Of a DNA stretch of 33,638 nt, positions 690 through 27,055 are shown piece after piece. The notes under the pieces were generated by a model that searched no databases, was not told where the DNA came from, and saw nothing but the letters and a program-made list of their open reading frames with translations. The stretch's first letter is position 1, and the number at the start of each line of letters is the position of its first letter. Source of the stretch: a virus; the IMG/VR virus record IMGVR_UViG_3300043803_001239, positions 1 to 33,638 of that record; one strand, given 5' to 3'. The translations under genes and the position numbers were made by a program.

Positions 690-759
690 GCGCGTCCGGT
701 GACCACGTTCTGCGTACACCGGACGCGCATTAGGTCGAGAGGGAGGGTCCGACCTAATG
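690..759. repeat. two consecutive perfect inverted repeats in the intergenic gap
   Basis: The gap 503-798 holds no convincing gene. It contains a 12-bp perfect inverted repeat, GCGCGTCCGGTG (690-701) with CACCGGACGCGC (717-728), whose loop has a further ACG/CGT pairing. A 10-bp perfect repeat follows, CATTAGGTCG (728-737) with CGACCTAATG (750-759). With the terminator stem at 766-790 this makes three hairpins in 100 bases. Neither of the first two is followed by a T-run, so they do not look like ordinary terminators. An RNA element or protein-binding site is possible. Confidence 0.65.
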
Positions 760-1177: not shown

Positions 1178-1405
1178 ATGACAACGCAAGCGAATAATTC
1201 GAGAAAAAAACAAGGCCGCCCGGGCCGCCCCGCAATCGGTATCGGCGTGCAAGTCAACGTCATGGTGCGCCCCGGATTGGGCGATGCCATCGACCAGTAC
1301 GCTGCTCAGACGGGGCTCAAGCGGACCGACGCCGTGCGGCGCCTGATCAAGCTCGGCCTCGCGGCGTACAACACCAGCCTGCTAGGCCTGCAGGACGAAC
1401 CCTGA
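1178..1405 (+). CDS. ribbon-helix-helix DNA-binding protein
   Basis: This encodes 75 residues; an AGAGGATAG ribosome site precedes the ATG. After a basic N-terminus (RKKQGRPGRPA) comes a beta strand (VQVNVMVRP) and two helices (GLGDAIDQYAAQTGLKRTDAVRRLIKLGL), the Arc/CopG/MetJ ribbon-helix-helix arrangement. Such proteins bind short operators as dimers and often repress their own promoter. It is one of the few rightward genes on the left arm. It diverges from the 799-1113 gene over 64 bases, so it could control both, and its 3' end overlaps the end of the convergent nuclease gene by 24 bases. No toxin gene follows, which argues against an antitoxin role. Confidence 0.75.
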   Translation: MTTQANNSRKKQGRPGRPAIGIGVQVNVMVRPGLGDAIDQYAAQTGLKRTDAVRRLIKLGLAAYNTSLLGLQDEP

Positions 1406-1822
1406 CATCGGAATCAGGCAGCATGGCTCAACGTCGTGCTCATCCCCTCGATCAGTGCGTCCTCCCAAAATCAGAGGGTACACGGGCCAAGCGTCGTCCG
1501 GCGTAATGGTCAGCGTGAACAATCCATCGGGCAGATCGAGCGCCAGCACAAACGCCATCTTGTGGACGCTATGCCACTGCGCCGCGTTCGCCCACTTGTG
1601 AGCGCTCAGGATTAGCCCGCCCATGCCATCCAGCTGCTGGCTGGTGTAGGTGCGGCACTTGATCTCCATCACGCCCCGCATCCTGCCCTCGGTGAAGACC
1701 GCGTAGTCCACCCCGTAGTACGGCTTCAGCTTGAATACCTGACACGCCCACCGGTCCGACAGGTACTGACCCACCCGAGCCTCTCGGGCCCTATCCTGCT
1801 CAGTTTCGTACGTCGGCCTCAT
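1382..1822 (-). CDS. PD-(D/E)XK-like nuclease, coupled to terminase small subunit
   Basis: This encodes 146 residues. The segment YGVDYAVFTEGRMRGVMEIK carries a PD-(D/E)XK signature: Asp39, then Glu53-x-Lys55 about 14 residues later on a predicted beta strand, with an upstream acidic residue (Glu8) that could complete the metal site. The rest (HKWANAAQW, FVLALDLPDGLF) fits the strand-helix pattern of small restriction-like folds. The ATG overlaps the terminase small subunit stop (ATGA, 1819-1822), so the two are translationally coupled. That suggests a packaging-related or end-processing job, but a Holliday-junction, repair or restriction-like role is equally compatible. No HNH motif is present. 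Substrate unknown. Confidence 0.65.
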   Translation of the reverse strand: MRPTYETEQDRAREARVGQYLSDRWACQVFKLKPYYGVDYAVFTEGRMRGVMEIKCRTYTSQQLDGMGGLILSAHKWANAAQWHSVHKMAFVLALDLPDGLFTLTITPDDAWPVYPLILGGRTDRGDEHDVEPCCLIPMSGFVLQA

Positions 1823-2334
1823 TGCAGGCTACCCCCCTCATCATCGTCGTCTTCCTCCACCTCGTCGATCTCTTCGCCCGCAGCGATGATCTCCAGCGCC
1901 TCCTCGAGGGCCTCCAGCGCACGCGTCGACAGCTGGTCGATGTTCAGCGTCGTGGTCACGTCCATCTCGATGGGCGCGCCATCCTTACCGCTGAGTTCCA
2001 CGTTTTTGTTCTCGCGCCACGACCTAGGAAAACGGGCAGCCATCGAGCGGGACCAAACCGACGAATTGAAGCCCGGCGTCCACAAAGCTTTCTTGCCTTG
2101 CTCTGCCCACCAGACCTCAGCTTTCTGCTCGGCACGTTCCATCGCGCGTAGAAAATCTGGATACTGCGCCATCCAATTGTAAATAGTTTTTACAGTGGTG
2201 TTGAGCGCATCGGCGATGTCGACCTTTGACGCGCCATTCTGGCCCATCGCAATGGCCGTCTCGCAAAACTCGGGCCTGTAGTCCGACGGTCGCCCGAGTG
2301 GCAGGCGATCTTCCGGCTTCTTCCGTGGGGTCAT
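1819..2334 (-). CDS. terS: terminase small subunit
   Basis: This encodes 171 residues. The start is the ATG at 2334, 7 bases after a perfect AAGGAGG site; upstream in-frame codons lack such a site. The N-terminus has GRPSDYRPEFCETAIAM, then an HTH (about residues 30-57, GASKVDIADALNTTVKTIYN) of the kind seen in phage DNA-packaging small subunits. The segment WWAEQGKKALW...FPRSWRE matches the conserved middle of these proteins. The C-terminus ends in a long acidic tail (EEIDEVEEDDDDEGG). The protein would recognise phage DNA and recruit the large ATPase/nuclease subunit. Unusually, the next gene is not the large subunit but a small nuclease, and no large subunit lies anywhere in this window. 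Confidence 0.8.
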   Translation of the reverse strand: MTPRKKPEDRLPLGRPSDYRPEFCETAIAMGQNGASKVDIADALNTTVKTIYNWMAQYPDFLRAMERAEQKAEVWWAEQGKKALWTPGFNSSVWSRSMAARFPRSWRENKNVELSGKDGAPIEMDVTTTLNIDQLSTRALEALEEALEIIAAGEEIDEVEEDDDDEGGSLQ

Positions 2335-2426: not shown

Positions 2427-2670
2427 GATCGATGTTAGCAATGTAGGCGCTGTTAGCCCCTCTCTTCTACGGCCCCTATTAAAACACTTATATTAGAGAA
2501 CATAGAGATAGAGTAAACATTGATAACAATGATATATCATCATATATATATATCTTATTTTACAAGGGTTTAGGCCTTCCAGCGGTGTTAGCCGACCCCC
2601 ATGAAACTTTGATCAATGTTATCACCAACATTGGCGTTTTTGGCTTTTCTGCCCTCTGCTAACATCGATC
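2427..2670. repeat. 14-bp inverted repeat bracketing the AT-rich region
   Basis: GATCGATGTTAGCA (2427-2440) and TGCTAACATCGATC (2657-2670) are exact reverse complements 216 bases apart. Each contains a copy of the TGTTAGC element. The distance is too long for a simple hairpin, so paired protein-binding sites are more likely. Confidence 0.7.
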
Positions 2671-2693: not shown

Positions 2694-2718
2694 TAAAAAA
2701 GGGGCCAAATGGCCCCTG
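2694..2718 (-). terminator. strong leftward terminator of the accessory operon
   Basis: A GGGGCC-AAAT-GGCCCC hairpin (2701-2716, plus an outer A-T pair) is followed on the minus strand by TTTTTT (2700-2695). It lies about 45 bases past the stop of the 2762-3013 gene, as expected for the end of the long leftward operon. On the plus strand the stem is followed by TGATTTTC, so weak rightward activity is also possible. Confidence 0.85.
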
Positions 2719-2761: not shown

Positions 2762-3013
2762 TCAGGTCGACGTCGTAACCGTGCCCGTAGACGCTGTTTT
2801 GGACCATGGTTTTCGCTTCATGATGAGCGCCCCGCAGGCGAGATCCGTCCTGCAGTCGGCGCCACGCTTTTTCATCAGCCAGAACCCCTGCCGGGTGATC
2901 CCAAGCAGGGCGGGGAGGTCTGCCTCCCTCTGCACGATGCCCTTTTCGACCATAGCCAGCGCCCACGCCCTGAAGTCGTCTGCGCTCATGGTTGTCTTGG
3001 GAGACTTGCTCAT
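2762..3013 (-). CDS. small putative HTH DNA-binding protein
   Basis: This encodes 83 residues and is the last gene of the leftward accessory operon. The stretch ADDFRAWALAMVEKGIVQ then ADLPALLGITRQGFWLMKKR reads as two to three helices, with a turn at LLGITRQGF like the recognition part of Cro/YdaS-type helix-turn-helix proteins; RTDLACGAL follows. The C-terminus (TASTGTVTTST) is low in complexity. The start codon overlaps the preceding stop in an ATGA arrangement. A regulator of phage transcription is plausible; no exact family is recognised. Confidence 0.65.
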   Translation of the reverse strand: MSKSPKTTMSADDFRAWALAMVEKGIVQREADLPALLGITRQGFWLMKKRGADCRTDLACGALIMKRKPWSKTASTGTVTTST

Positions 3014-8996: not shown

Positions 8997-11336
8997 TCAA
9001 ACCATCCTGTACACTACGCTCGGCTTTCCGCCCTGAGCGGGGATTTTCTTGGTTTCCTCAATCACGCCGCTGTCGATGGCGCCCTTCAGAAGCTCCTCCA
9101 GATCTCGAACTTTCACTGCGCCGCGCAATTTCTGCAGCAGTAGTCGGCGGTGCAGGCTCTTGTTTGGAGCCGTCTCGATCATCCGGATGACCCGGTTATA
9201 CGTTTTTTGGTTCTCGTTTTCGGCCATGTATCCAGCGGCGGCGTTCTCCATGTTCCGTGCCGACCACATGGCTAATTCGCGCCCCCACTGCATGTCCTCC
9301 TTGTGGACCTCGAGCCGACCGCACCCCATCGCGCAGATGGTCGCCAGACGCACCGCCATCTCCCCGGTACGGGCGAAGAAAGGGTCTCGGCTGTTATTCT
9401 CACGAATCTTCTTGACCTCTGCTGATAGGTCGTTCCAAGGGCCCCTCCCCCCGTTCCAGACCAATTTCTTGGCTGATCGAGGTGCCCCGATAGGCGACGT
9501 CAAATCAGACGGGCTCAGCTGCATGGCCATGTTCCTGAGCGTTGCCAGCTTCAAAGCCAGATCATCGGGAACGTCTCTCCCGTGCTGTGGGTCTTGATCG
9601 TCCGCTGTTTTGCTGGTCGAAAAAATGAGGAAGCGGTTCAGGAAGCCGTTGCGGATGTCTCCGCCTTCCAGACCCTCATAAAATTCCTCGATGGTGCTCA
9701 CCCCATATAGGCTGAGCGCAGGGTTCTGAACTTCCGTGCTGGCCCGCTGAGCCCACTCCGGAGTTAGGTAGCTCTCAAAGCTGATGCCCCAGATGGTGCG
9801 GAGGATCTTGCTGATCGATGCCTCATAGCCCGAAGCATTCTTGTTGCTCAGGCGCTTGAGCCACGCCCCGATTTCGTCCATCGCGCAGATCGACAGCGGC
9901 TGACGCTGGAGAAAATTGACCACGGACGGCATGCTGATGAATTCGGACGGACCAAGCAAGTGCTTCAGATTTGCCGCGCCCATCAGCCTCTTGATGCACT
10001 GCAACGGGTAGTCCTTGCCCGCCCCCGACGGAGCCAGCCCGATGATGTAGGTGTGGGTCGCGCTATCAGTCGGCCCGGTCACGCCATTGCCCACGAGCGT
10101 ACCCACCACGCCGATGGCCGGACCAAGCGCCAGCGCACGAGAGGGGCGGCGTGAGCCCCCAACAATCCAGTCCATGATCTCGCCCAGCAGCCCGCTTGGG
10201 TGGAGCAGGTGGGCGGGGATCTCGTCGAACGAATTCAGATCTAGAGCGATGGGGGCCGCGCTCACAGCCTCATCGAAGACTTCGCCGGTTACGGGGTCGA
10301 ATGCGACCTCCTCGGAACTCACCGGAATTTCCGGATAGGCTGACTGCTCGAACTGCAGGGCGGGCACGTCAAACCTCTCAACCCCCATGCCAAGCCGCGA
10401 AGTCAAAAATTTCACGGCGTCATCGAGCGGCAGATCGAGGGCCTTCATGGTCAGATCGATGGCCGTGTAGCTGTCGCCGGTCCCAAAATCTCGAGCGCCC
10501 TGCCCCGGCATGATTGAGAGGTTGGCACTTCTCTCCGACAACGACCGGCCCGTGCTCGATGCCCGCCAATGCGCCACAGCCTTGTAGCTGCCGGTCGACG
10601 TGCGCGAGCACGTGTGCAGGTTCAGATCCGGCACCCAGCGATCAAGATTAGAGTAGGCCGTGTTGTTGAGAACACGCCAGAATTTCTGCTCGTCGTCGGG
10701 AAGCTGGATCAGCTGCGCCTGATGAGGGGGCGAAGATACCGGCTTTTTGGTCAGCACCTCGACCTGCTCGATGAAGCGCTCGATGTCGTCATCAGTGAGA
10801 ACCGGCAAACTGTGTGCGGGGGTGGTGAGCAGGGTGCTCGGACCCATCCACGTGTATGGCTGGCCAGTGTCGGGGTGGACGCTGGGCGGGATCACTGTCT
10901 GTCGAGTGTCTGTCAGAAGCTCGACAATGGCCGTGCGGAAACCCTTGGTGCGAAGCGGCACAAGGTAGAAGGCAGTGTAGCCGCGACGGCCCTTCTTCTT
11001 GACGGGAGAGGCTGGCAGGGCGCTCTCAAGGTCCGCTAGGACGTCAGGGTCATCGGTATCGTAATCCACCGCCGCAACCATGTGCGTGGCCGTGGCCTTG
11101 GTGCCGGTGAGAATGCCAATGTTGCAGTCCGGCCAAGCTGCCCACATTTTGGCGACGAACGGCTTCGCCGGATCGTTTCGAAACTGTTCCCACTTTTTCA
11201 TGGGATACCAATGCCCCGCCCGGTACTCGGACGGAGCCTTGCTGTTTGGTGCGACTGGCAGAACTGAGTAGCCGTTAGCTGCCAGCTGCTGCCAAGCTGC
11301 GTCGAAAGGCGAGCGAGGCTCTGTCGCTGCTAACAT
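8997..11336 (-). CDS. primase-polymerase / ATPase (helicase-like) replication protein
   Basis: This encodes 779 residues; the start is the ATG at 11336 behind CTGGAGAGATCGTC rather than ATGs at 11357 or 11363. The N-terminal 200 residues match the bifunctional primase/polymerase (AEP) domain: GYSVLPVAPNSKAP, the catalytic AAVDYDTDD (Asp91, Asp93) and RQTVIPPSVHPDTGQPYTW. A second block carries Walker A GLAPSGAGKD (about 433-442) and Walker B ICAMDEIG (about 480), as in DUF3987-like phage replication ATPases. The C-terminus (HRRLLLQKLRGAVKVRDLEE) looks like a winged helix. The protein probably primes and helps unwind phage DNA. No DNA polymerase gene is visible, so host polymerase is presumably recruited. 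Confidence 0.85.
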   Translation of the reverse strand: MLAATEPRSPFDAAWQQLAANGYSVLPVAPNSKAPSEYRAGHWYPMKKWEQFRNDPAKPFVAKMWAAWPDCNIGILTGTKATATHMVAAVDYDTDDPDVLADLESALPASPVKKKGRRGYTAFYLVPLRTKGFRTAIVELLTDTRQTVIPPSVHPDTGQPYTWMGPSTLLTTPAHSLPVLTDDDIERFIEQVEVLTKKPVSSPPHQAQLIQLPDDEQKFWRVLNNTAYSNLDRWVPDLNLHTCSRTSTGSYKAVAHWRASSTGRSLSERSANLSIMPGQGARDFGTGDSYTAIDLTMKALDLPLDDAVKFLTSRLGMGVERFDVPALQFEQSAYPEIPVSSEEVAFDPVTGEVFDEAVSAAPIALDLNSFDEIPAHLLHPSGLLGEIMDWIVGGSRRPSRALALGPAIGVVGTLVGNGVTGPTDSATHTYIIGLAPSGAGKDYPLQCIKRLMGAANLKHLLGPSEFISMPSVVNFLQRQPLSICAMDEIGAWLKRLSNKNASGYEASISKILRTIWGISFESYLTPEWAQRASTEVQNPALSLYGVSTIEEFYEGLEGGDIRNGFLNRFLIFSTSKTADDQDPQHGRDVPDDLALKLATLRNMAMQLSPSDLTSPIGAPRSAKKLVWNGGRGPWNDLSAEVKKIRENNSRDPFFARTGEMAVRLATICAMGCGRLEVHKEDMQWGRELAMWSARNMENAAAGYMAENENQKTYNRVIRMIETAPNKSLHRRLLLQKLRGAVKVRDLEELLKGAIDSGVIEETKKIPAQGGKPSVVYRMV

Positions 11337-11359
11337 GACGATCTCTCCAGAGCGCATAA

Positions 11360-11800
11360 TCAAAAAGGAACGTCATCGGGCTTTTCGACCGTCAGGTTGA
11401 GACGCATTTTGTTGCTGTAGCTGACCAGCGTGTTAACCAATGCGTTCTTGAAGTCGCCGCCTTCGTAAATCTTCTCTACCATGGGCGCGAAACGCTCCGC
11501 CGTAATGGCGTCGAGATCCCTGATGTCGTTTTCCCACAGCGTAGCCATGACCGCAGCCACAATGTCCTGCATGTGCTCGCGAATCGCTTCGTCGAGGGCC
11601 TTGGCTTCATTCTCTTCCAGACGGATCGGGCTCATATTGTGGGCCACCTTCATTGCTAGTTTGATTGAGCAAAGCCCACACATCCACATGGGCTGCAGTT
11701 TTTTTGAGCGGCCAGAAATGCATAGCGTGATCGCCTCTCGAGCGCACACGCCGCAGATCGTGGGGTCTTTCGACCGGCGCCCGACTAGAACGCCAGCCAT
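11360..11800 (-). CDS. zinc-finger phage protein
   Basis: This encodes 146 residues. CGVC (about residues 17-20) and CGLC (41-44) make a four-cysteine zinc ribbon at the N-terminus, with the rest mostly helical (ENEAKALDEAIREHMQDIVA). It sits between the primase and the GcrA-like gene, with 3 bases to the GcrA stop, and its end overlaps the region used to start the primase. It could load or regulate the primase; similar Cys-rich proteins often lie next to phage primases. Function is not established from sequence. Confidence 0.65.
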   Translation of the reverse strand: MAGVLVGRRSKDPTICGVCAREAITLCISGRSKKLQPMWMCGLCSIKLAMKVAHNMSPIRLEENEAKALDEAIREHMQDIVAAVMATLWENDIRDLDAITAERFAPMVEKIYEGGDFKNALVNTLVSYSNKMRLNLTVEKPDDVPF

Positions 11801-11803
11801 TTC

Positions 11804-12343
11804 TTACGCTTTCCGAATTTTAACCGGAGCCGTCGGGAGGTAGCACATTGCGTGGTGATCTGGGCAGTAGGACGAGCCGTCCTGCTTTTCATCGTTGCAA
11901 AACACGTGCAGGTTTTTAGCGTTTACACCAATGGAATAGAGGCACCCGCTCACGTCTTCCAGCAGACCCGGCCCGGTCTTTTTCTCTTTCATCTGAAAGG
12001 CAATGACGTTTCCCTTGATGGGCACTGTCGGAGCGACCTTTACCGGGGCCGTCTGCCTCGCCACCGGAGCAGTGGCGGCGACCTGATCCTGCACCTTGGG
12101 CCGACGCGGGCGGCTCGTTCGATCCTTGGCCTCCTGTGGCCGACTGTTTCCACGAGCGAGCATGACGCCAGCGTGGACCAGCCGGTGAATTTTGCCAATA
12201 ATGGCATTTCGGGTAATTTTCAGCCCAAACATTCTACTCATCTCCTGAGCTACGACCGTGGCGCTTTTGCCCTCGTGCCACAGCTTTTTTAGTTCATCGA
12301 CCTGCTCTGGCCGCCACTCCGTCTGCCCCCTGTTACGCTCCAC
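11804..12343 (-). CDS. GcrA-like cell cycle regulator
   Basis: This encodes 179 residues from the GTG at 12343, which overlaps the upstream HTH gene by 11 bases and follows GGATCC. The N-terminus, EWRPEQVDELKKLWHEG then SATVVAQEM and TRNAIIGKIHRL (about residues 9-55), is the DNA-binding HTH of GcrA. The C-terminus, GCLYSIG, FCNDEKQDGSSYCPDHHAMC, matches the GcrA Cys/His end that contacts sigma factor. GcrA activates sigma-70 promoters in alphaproteobacteria, dependent on GANTC methylation by CcrM. A long basic Pro/Ala linker separates the ends. The phage copy may redirect host transcription or drive phage promoters, and it strongly indicates an alphaproteobacterial host. Confidence 0.8.
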   Translation of the reverse strand: MERNRGQTEWRPEQVDELKKLWHEGKSATVVAQEMSRMFGLKITRNAIIGKIHRLVHAGVMLARGNSRPQEAKDRTSRPRRPKVQDQVAATAPVARQTAPVKVAPTVPIKGNVIAFQMKEKKTGPGLLEDVSGCLYSIGVNAKNLHVFCNDEKQDGSSYCPDHHAMCYLPTAPVKIRKA

Positions 12344-12542
12344 GGTCCGGATCCTCGTAAATGTCCGGCCTAAGTTCCCAGCGCGGGATTCCGGTAATTT
12401 CGGATATCGCAACCGCGCGCCAAAAAGGCACCACGCCACGTTTCTGCCAGTGAGAGATGGTGCTGGGGCTCAACCCCAGCAGGGCGGCAAGCATGGAGCG
12501 CCTACCGCGCTCAACCTGAAACCATTTGTAAAGTTCGTTCAT
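12333..12542 (-). CDS. Cro/YdaS-type HTH repressor
   Basis: This encodes 69 residues, the first gene of the leftward operon, with a good GAGGAG site before its ATG. MNELYKWFQVERGRRSMLAA then LLGLSPSTISHWQKRG and VPFWRAVAISEITGIPRWEL is the classic arrangement of the Cro/YdaS family. Its position at the divergent control region, next to the rightward promoter, suggests a Cro-like switch protein. The 2762-3013 product has a related plan. Confidence 0.75.
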   Translation of the reverse strand: MNELYKWFQVERGRRSMLAALLGLSPSTISHWQKRGVVPFWRAVAISEITGIPRWELRPDIYEDPDRGA

Positions 12543-12729
12543 GATCTCCTCATGTAAAAAAAGTGCCCTCCCATCATGGCTCGGAGCCTAGCCCGACGTC
12601 CACCTTCTTTTTTACATTTTCTGAAAAAATAATGTTGACGGGTTCTGAATGGCCTCCTAAACCGATGTGGTCAGCCCGAGATGCGGGCACAACTTACTTA
12701 CCCAACGAACCAACGAACGAGCTTCTGAA
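12543..12729. promoter_or_regulatory. divergent control region between leftward and rightward operons
   Basis: These 187 bases separate the Cro-like gene from the recombination operon. On the plus strand TTGACG (12635-12640), 17 bases, then TAAACC (12658-12663) makes a candidate promoter for the rightward operon; it is preceded by AAAAAATAATG, similar to the TGTAAAATAATT element. Further T/A-rich TGTAAAA-like stretches occur in both orientations (12554-12562 and 12610-12617). Likely operators for the HTH proteins lie here; exact sites cannot be fixed. Confidence 0.55.
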
Positions 12730-26464: not shown

Positions 26465-27055
26465 TTAATCGACTTTTGGACCCGGTAGCTTTTGCAGGGT
26501 CTTGATGGTCTTTGCCCGATACTTTTTTACGAACTCATCCAGAATCCGATGCCCATGATCGAGGTCTCCTTCCCCGATCTTCACGACATCCTCCGGAGGA
26601 ATAACGTACTCTCCACCAGCGGCGACGATGGGTACCGTGTCCACCTCGCCACCACCCGCCTTTGCGACGGCGGGCGCGTCGTAAGGCATCCCTGCCCCAA
26701 TCTCTGGAGCCCCATAGGGCATTTTGCTGAAGATGCTGTTGGCAATCTTGAACCCGGCCATGCTGTTGCCTTCGCCCATGGCCGAGATGATATCCGCCGG
26801 GATCACGTAAGATCCGGACTTCACGTGCATCGGCAGGTGGTCGGTGCGCCCCGCCACGTTGCTGTGGATCGGCCCAACATGAACCTTCCCCATGGCGCCG
26901 CCCTTGGGCCGTGCGACCTGAGATCCTCGAGCATGTGCCTCGCGCGCCGTGCTCAGCGCAGCCGCGACAGCCTGCCCCTGCGGGCGCCCGGCGTGCATCA
27001 TCTCGCTGATGTTGCCGCTTATCGTTTCTTGCGAATTTCCGCGCTTAAGGGGCAT
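26465..27055 (-). CDS. phage protein with duplicated YVIP motif
   Basis: This encodes 196 residues. The N-terminus GRPQGQAVAAALSTARE belongs to a motif frequent in marine phage proteins. Two related segments follow: SGSYVIPADIISAMGEG (about 80-96) and GGEYVIPPEDVVKIGEG (148-164), each followed by a helix. The Gly-Gly-x-Tyr-Val-Ile-Pro-x-(D/E) pattern also resembles the GG...P/DGG linkers in the giant ejection protein two genes later. It is coupled tightly in the late operon (gap of 1 base upstream). Probably a virion assembly protein; precise role unknown. Confidence 0.65.
   Translation of the reverse strand: MPLKRGNSQETISGNISEMMHAGRPQGQAVAAALSTAREAHARGSQVARPKGGAMGKVHVGPIHSNVAGRTDHLPMHVKSGSYVIPADIISAMGEGNSMAGFKIANSIFSKMPYGAPEIGAGMPYDAPAVAKAGGGEVDTVPIVAAGGEYVIPPEDVVKIGEGDLDHGHRILDEFVKKYRAKTIKTLQKLPGPKVD

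Follow-up and report, generated by a model that had tools for sequence, protein, structure and literature searches.

The largest gap between gene calls in the window, a 33,638-bp IMG/VR virus record that is itself a fragment, raises the question of what its repeats and AT-rich tract serve. Flanked by the terminator that closes a leftward early operon and by the leftward gene for the terminase small subunit (TerS), the gap covers 427 bp, and the first-pass annotation had proposed either an origin or a master control site there. For most environmental phages, to our knowledge, no replication origin is known. The elements of the gap and the neighbouring genes are listed below.

1178-1405, plus strand: gene for a 75-aa ribbon-helix-helix-like repressor (phrog_4738), a rival binder
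1819-2334, minus strand: terminase small subunit gene (terS, phrog_309), the neighbour of the array and a rival binder
2335-2761, no strand: intergenic region with the putative origin
2427-2440, plus strand: left arm of the 14-bp perfect inverted repeat, containing an iteron
2431-2457, minus strand: three iterons at 9-bp spacing, GCTAACAGC (2449-2457), decayed GCCTACATT (2440-2448) and GCTAACATC (2431-2439)
2475-2585, no strand: AT-rich tract, putative unwinding element
2583-2592, minus strand: iteron GCTAACACCG
2611-2634, no strand: decayed head-to-head pair of GATAACATTG (2614-2623, minus strand) and the half-site CAATGTTGG
2657-2670, minus strand: right arm of the inverted repeat, with iteron GCTAACATCG on the plus strand at 2658-2667
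2700-2717, minus strand: intrinsic terminator closing the leftward early operon, with a T run after its stem (2717-2700)
2762-3013, minus strand: 83-aa small ORF with a helix-turn-helix recognised by eye only, a rival binder

The layout first described, with a terminator that is real in form on one side of the largest non-coding gap and terS on the other, was recovered. Four exact TGTTAGC copies, three direct (2433, 2451 and 2586, plus strand) and one inverted (2658, minus strand), lay within 2427-2670, together with the 14-bp inverted repeat and about 110 bases of AT-rich DNA (71% AT over 2475-2585). With two further copies at 867 and 11329, the window held six TGTTAGC in total, a number reached in none of 100 whole-window shuffles. 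When 1670 overlapping 244-bp stretches were scanned at 20-bp steps, any 7-mer occurred four times only in the array and at one other place (CGCTGTC near 19.3 kb, within a gene). Among perfect inverted repeats of the window with spacers of up to 300 bp, this one was the longest, and the 100-bp AT maximum of the window (76%) fell in the gap. Rfam gave no match in 2300-2800, and a plain DNA search of phage records returned a single 61-bp match. DnaA boxes were not enriched (1 against 1.8 expected), and a DnaA origin was rejected for this reason. No IHF site was found in the window; across arrays, IHF sites were weakly enriched (3 exact against 0.4 expected, p 0.02).

The earlier repeat count was correct for exact copies and incomplete, as relatives have more copies and the window has degenerate ones. 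Judged from sequence, the true repeat unit is a 9-10-bp iteron, GCTAACAYYG (minus strand in the window), occurring in both orientations, of which relatives carried up to seven exact or one-mismatch copies per 240 bp; some copies in the window have apparently decayed. The region was retained in the near relatives L004 and L005, and in L006-L009 at 91% TerS identity. The iterons of L005 comprised three at 9-bp spacing, one head-to-head pair and two further singles; each of the three iterons of 2431-2457 was intact there, as was the pair of 2611-2634 (AATGTTAGT-GCTAACATCG), and most copies of L006-L009 had ACC in place of the ATC of the L005 iterons. In G001, a 55,613-bp near-complete relative whose two ends come within about 20 bp of each other when mapped to the window, the homologous 427-bp gap was the largest (by gene calls made here) and held the 100-bp AT peak. 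Seven copies with at most one mismatch lay within 300 bp in G001, against at most two in 20 simulated genomes. Six of its seven exact GCTAACAYYG were in the array, and so an even spread of the motif, named at first as an argument against the site, was not found. Additionally, the CTAACA core upstream of terS was retained in G005, G013 and G014 at 41-44% TerS identity (PrimPol identity of G005 and G013, 56%), and the degenerate array of G012 kept a single exact CTAACA.

Arrays of at least four copies were present upstream of terS in six of seven distinct PrimPol-clade regions, whereas none of 24 non-PrimPol TerS relatives had more than three copies there; these counts omit L021 and L075, whose extracted stretch overran the start and gave void values, L010 and L098, with less than 300 bp of upstream sequence, and duplicate entries. 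With the PrimPol alignment as query, 45 loci were collected, of which 40 were testable after omission of L157, L164, L171, L173 and L176 (under 600 bp 3' of PrimPol). PrimPol relatives at 34-57% identity carried arrays of different sequence, mostly just 3' of PrimPol, where the AT peak was bracketed by many different motifs: ATAACCGTC in L145 and L147, GTGACAACC in L153 (iteron given as GTGACAACCG), GGGACAACC in L151, AACCTGT in L152 and L163, CCTAAAA in L158 and L165, and ten CGTGACA in L161. A 7-mer array at this AT peak was significant in 16 of the 40 loci by rank against their own background (p<0.05; the other 24 were not significant) and in 23 of 40 by shuffling (p<0.05), in a test that overlooks arrays located elsewhere. 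On bacterial genome contigs, 10 of 23 PrimPol loci had an array at the AT peak by rank (p<0.05) and 13 did not, the weak matches L242-L244 being left out. These counts are comparative, like all the evidence here, and come from mutually related loci and possibly incomplete metagenome contigs. The contrast between the PrimPol-clade and other TerS regions, together with the PrimPol-side arrays, indicates that the array tracks the PrimPol module and not the terminase. The position of the array in the window, adjoining terS and 6.3 kb from the PrimPol gene, counts against an origin served by PrimPol. GANTC was found 22 times in 24 PrimPol-locus array regions against 43.6 in shuffles, about half, perhaps reflecting avoidance of CcrM-type methylation at origins.

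A TerL query revealed phages with other replication genes and analogous mixed-orientation arrays, of other sequence and kilobases from terS (the first five below).

L081, 1181-1370: array directly after a Toprim/RepA-like helicase gene (Pfam AAA_25)
L123, 1479-1617: array directly after a gene of the same kind (Pfam AAA_25)
L089, 389-604: array after a Toprim/RepA-like helicase gene (similar gene end, read by eye)
L062, 828-1006: array after a Toprim/RepA-like helicase gene (similar gene end, read by eye)
L096, 1984-2301: array after a PriCT-2/DUF5906 gene
L065, 1787-2113: further analogous array, in a phage with another replication gene

Several of these six arrays hold a strong hairpin, for example CTGCACCCCCC...GGGGGGCAG, which is perhaps a priming site.

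The PrimPol of the window has three parts.

8997-11363, minus strand: PrimPol, 788 aa, the proposed initiator, with Prim-Pol (PF09250), DUF3987/MCM-like AAA+ and C-terminal winged-helix domains
9264-10316: DUF3987 domain (PrimPol residues 350-700), predicted MCM AAA+ ring-like fold
9000-9221, minus strand: part encoding the winged helix (PrimPol residues 715-788), the proposed iteron reader

The Prim-Pol domain matched PF09250 with an E value of 1.3e-18. DUF3987 was matched by the fragment at 27.8 bits (cut-off 27) and in 24 of 26 members, and the whole protein scored 24.9 bits, under the cut-off. The predicted fold of the AAA+ domain resembled MCM helicases (3f8t: Z 18.8, rmsd 3.5, 245 residues), and in the model, DUF3987 followed by the winged helix appears to mimic the MCM domain order. 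The winged helix was predicted by AF2 at a pLDDT of 81.7, with Z about 10 to wHTH proteins and PadR-type regulators. A profile search of A4 against solved structures gave no significant match.

Iteron sequence and winged helix covaried. In 29 array-bearing loci (selected at rank p<0.05 or shuffle p 0.005 among PrimPol loci, and at rank p<0.05 among bacterial contigs), similarity of automatically derived iteron profiles correlated with winged-helix identity (r 0.474); because all 29 were chosen for having an array, the test is silent on array-less loci. When relatives sharing more than 80% helicase identity were removed, leaving 23 loci, the partial correlation given helicase identity was 0.360 (p 0.0003), and that of the helicase given the winged helix was -0.194. 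The winged helix ranked first (0.359) among nine segments from residue 360 on, and the N-terminal domain gave an r of 0.012. An earlier version with hand-read consensus sequences was in agreement (partial r 0.38, n=18).

A GC-skew minimum had been expected at the site. This expectation failed in the window, a fragment with its minimum at 27040, away from the array, and was borne out in G001 (minimum 10770-10776, array 11219-11444), where the whole-genome skew walk was weak (block-permutation p 0.02 to 0.24). The 12 array-bearing contigs that reach 20 kb were scored for the circular distance from the detrended cumulative minimum to the array, a set that omits G043 (no array, no chosen site) and the shorter G005 and G009, which were scored outside the 12. 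The minimum was near the array (p<0.1 each) in nine contigs (G001, G031, G032, G012, G013, G002, G026, G022 and G021) and not in G034, G023 and the window itself. The Fisher p was 1.3e-5 over the full 12, and 7.6e-5 when nine non-redundant contigs were used. In G031, whose ends overlap, the skew maximum lay 0.44 of the circle from the array. In G039, G040, G041 and G044, which have an AT peak without a clear array, the skew minimum did not coincide with the peak.

Comparison with relatives thus favours the origin over the master control site. Given the computed evidence, namely a conserved array linked to PrimPol, a skew minimum nearby, the predicted winged-helix fold and the iteron/winged-helix covariation, the gap is very probably a phage replication origin, built as iterons, AT-rich tract and iterons and bound by the phage PrimPol. 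By analogy with SaPI/PICI Rep, P4 alpha and pRN1 ORF904, the C-terminal winged helix would bind GCTAACAYYG iterons in opposed orientations on either side of the AT-rich tract, the MCM-like AAA+ ring would assemble at the iterons and melt the tract, the N-terminal primase-polymerase would prime, and forks would depart bidirectionally.

It is quite unlikely that the array is instead an operator or centromere, for late genes or partition, bound by the ribbon-helix-helix protein or by the product of the 83-aa ORF. Tandem 9-bp repeats fit ribbon-helix-helix dimers, the array is upstream of terS, and the protein in question is a phrog_4738 repressor whose Q-N-M strand residues are retained in G005, G012, G013 and G014. 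However, the promoter gap of its own gene was free of GCTAACA (by eye), and such a site predicts neither the covariation nor the skew minimum. The 83-aa ORF was dropped as a binder, as it was not found in these same four distant array-keeping relatives (tblastn 1e-4).

A cosB/pac-like packaging site, at which the small terminase would bind repeats upstream of its own gene and the AT tract would act as a bend, is very unlikely. The array directly adjoins terS in PrimPol-clade relatives wherever terS was seen, which made packaging an early candidate, and it resembles lambda cosB, where mixed-orientation repeats surround a bendable tract beside the small terminase gene. Unlike those of lambda cosB/pac, the repeats do not track TerS across relatives, and packaging was dropped after the PrimPol-side arrays and the 0/24 result for the other TerS loci. 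Moreover, the TerS helix-turn-helix differs between the window and G005, G012 and G013, yet the CTAACA core is retained, and eight records with PrimPol-side arrays have no detectable TerL of the window's type, on contigs that are perhaps incomplete. A conserved promoter or regulatory region serving the late operon, in which the repeats and the AT richness are incidental, would suit a gap upstream of terS with a TATATT hexamer conserved before the start in four aligned sequences, but is very unlikely, as 2300-2800 contains no sigma-70-like site and the analogous arrays sit 3' of replication genes and not upstream of late genes.

The origin proposed here has parallels in known systems. In PMC6092414 and PMC7581432, the PICI/SaPI pri-rep origin consists of two sets of short iterons flanking an AT-rich tract, served by an initiator helicase with a C-terminal origin-binding domain. 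The window likewise has iterons on both sides of an AT tract and an initiator with a proposed C-terminal binding domain, but it belongs to a phage that itself encodes terminase and portal and has an AEP PrimPol with MCM-like DUF3987; near-complete G001 carries its own TerL and portal and is not a helper-dependent island. The PICI/SaPI siting directly 3' of the initiator gene is seen in many PrimPol relatives and not in the window. P4 alpha, as described in PMC4234260, is a multifunctional primase-helicase, a single protein whose winged helix binds repeats. The PrimPol would be alike in being one protein of this kind, and differs in that the P4 primase is of the Toprim type and that of the window an AEP Prim-Pol. 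The iterons of P4 also differ in sequence from those of the window.

Also in PMC4234260, pRN1 ORF904 combines an AEP primase-polymerase, a helicase and a C-terminal winged helix, and its origin, an iteron-free stem-loop of roughly 100 nt, lies 3' of the gene. The PrimPol shares this make-up, whereas the array has iterons and does not follow the PrimPol gene directly on its 3' side. The domain order AEP-DUF3987-WH is that of PrimQH-type proteins, for which the available part of PMC5862659 suggests the winged helix as a possible origin recogniser and gives no cognate origin. The window protein falls in this class by its Prim-Pol match, the DUF3987 match of the fragment and the predicted fold of its winged helix, and the arrays are candidate targets of the winged helix in such proteins. 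In search listings of open-licence papers, none was found to describe phage iterons with PrimPol or DUF3987.

The chances seem evenly balanced that alphaproteobacterial phages with a PrimPol-MCM-like AAA+-winged helix protein generally use modular, fast-diverging iteron-AT-iteron origins that co-evolve with the winged helix, the opposed iterons loading two MCM-like rings head to head. If so, an arrangement described as exclusive to PICIs would represent a general way of pairing initiator and origin, whatever the primase type, and the origin could move kilobases away from the initiator gene. From the sequences at hand one can propose a cis-acting site, the domain that likely reads it and a naturally occurring set of matched pairs, which opens origin specificity to domain swaps.

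Several minor observations concern the surrounding DNA. A 69-aa Cro-like ORF (12333-12542) lies beside the gap from which the primase and Sak4 operons diverge (12543-12666), which contains no TGTTAGC. Long head-to-tail repeats with regular 12-bp, 15-bp or multiple-of-6 spacing were found in L145 (3123-3315), L146 (3308-3593) and L038 (12234-12590), probably in coding sequence. Within a part of G001 that does not align to the window, its second AT peak holds a 111-aa low-GC ORF (L030 12771-13106; G001 52771-53106) that looks like a recent insertion. The early operon of the phage encodes a GcrA-type cell-cycle regulator (PF07750, 11804-12439), a pointer to an alphaproteobacterial host. Finally, the window (690-728) and G001 (L028 13155-13193) carry, in opposite orientations, a 39-bp segment that has inverted arms of 12 bp, as if its loop had been inverted between the arms.
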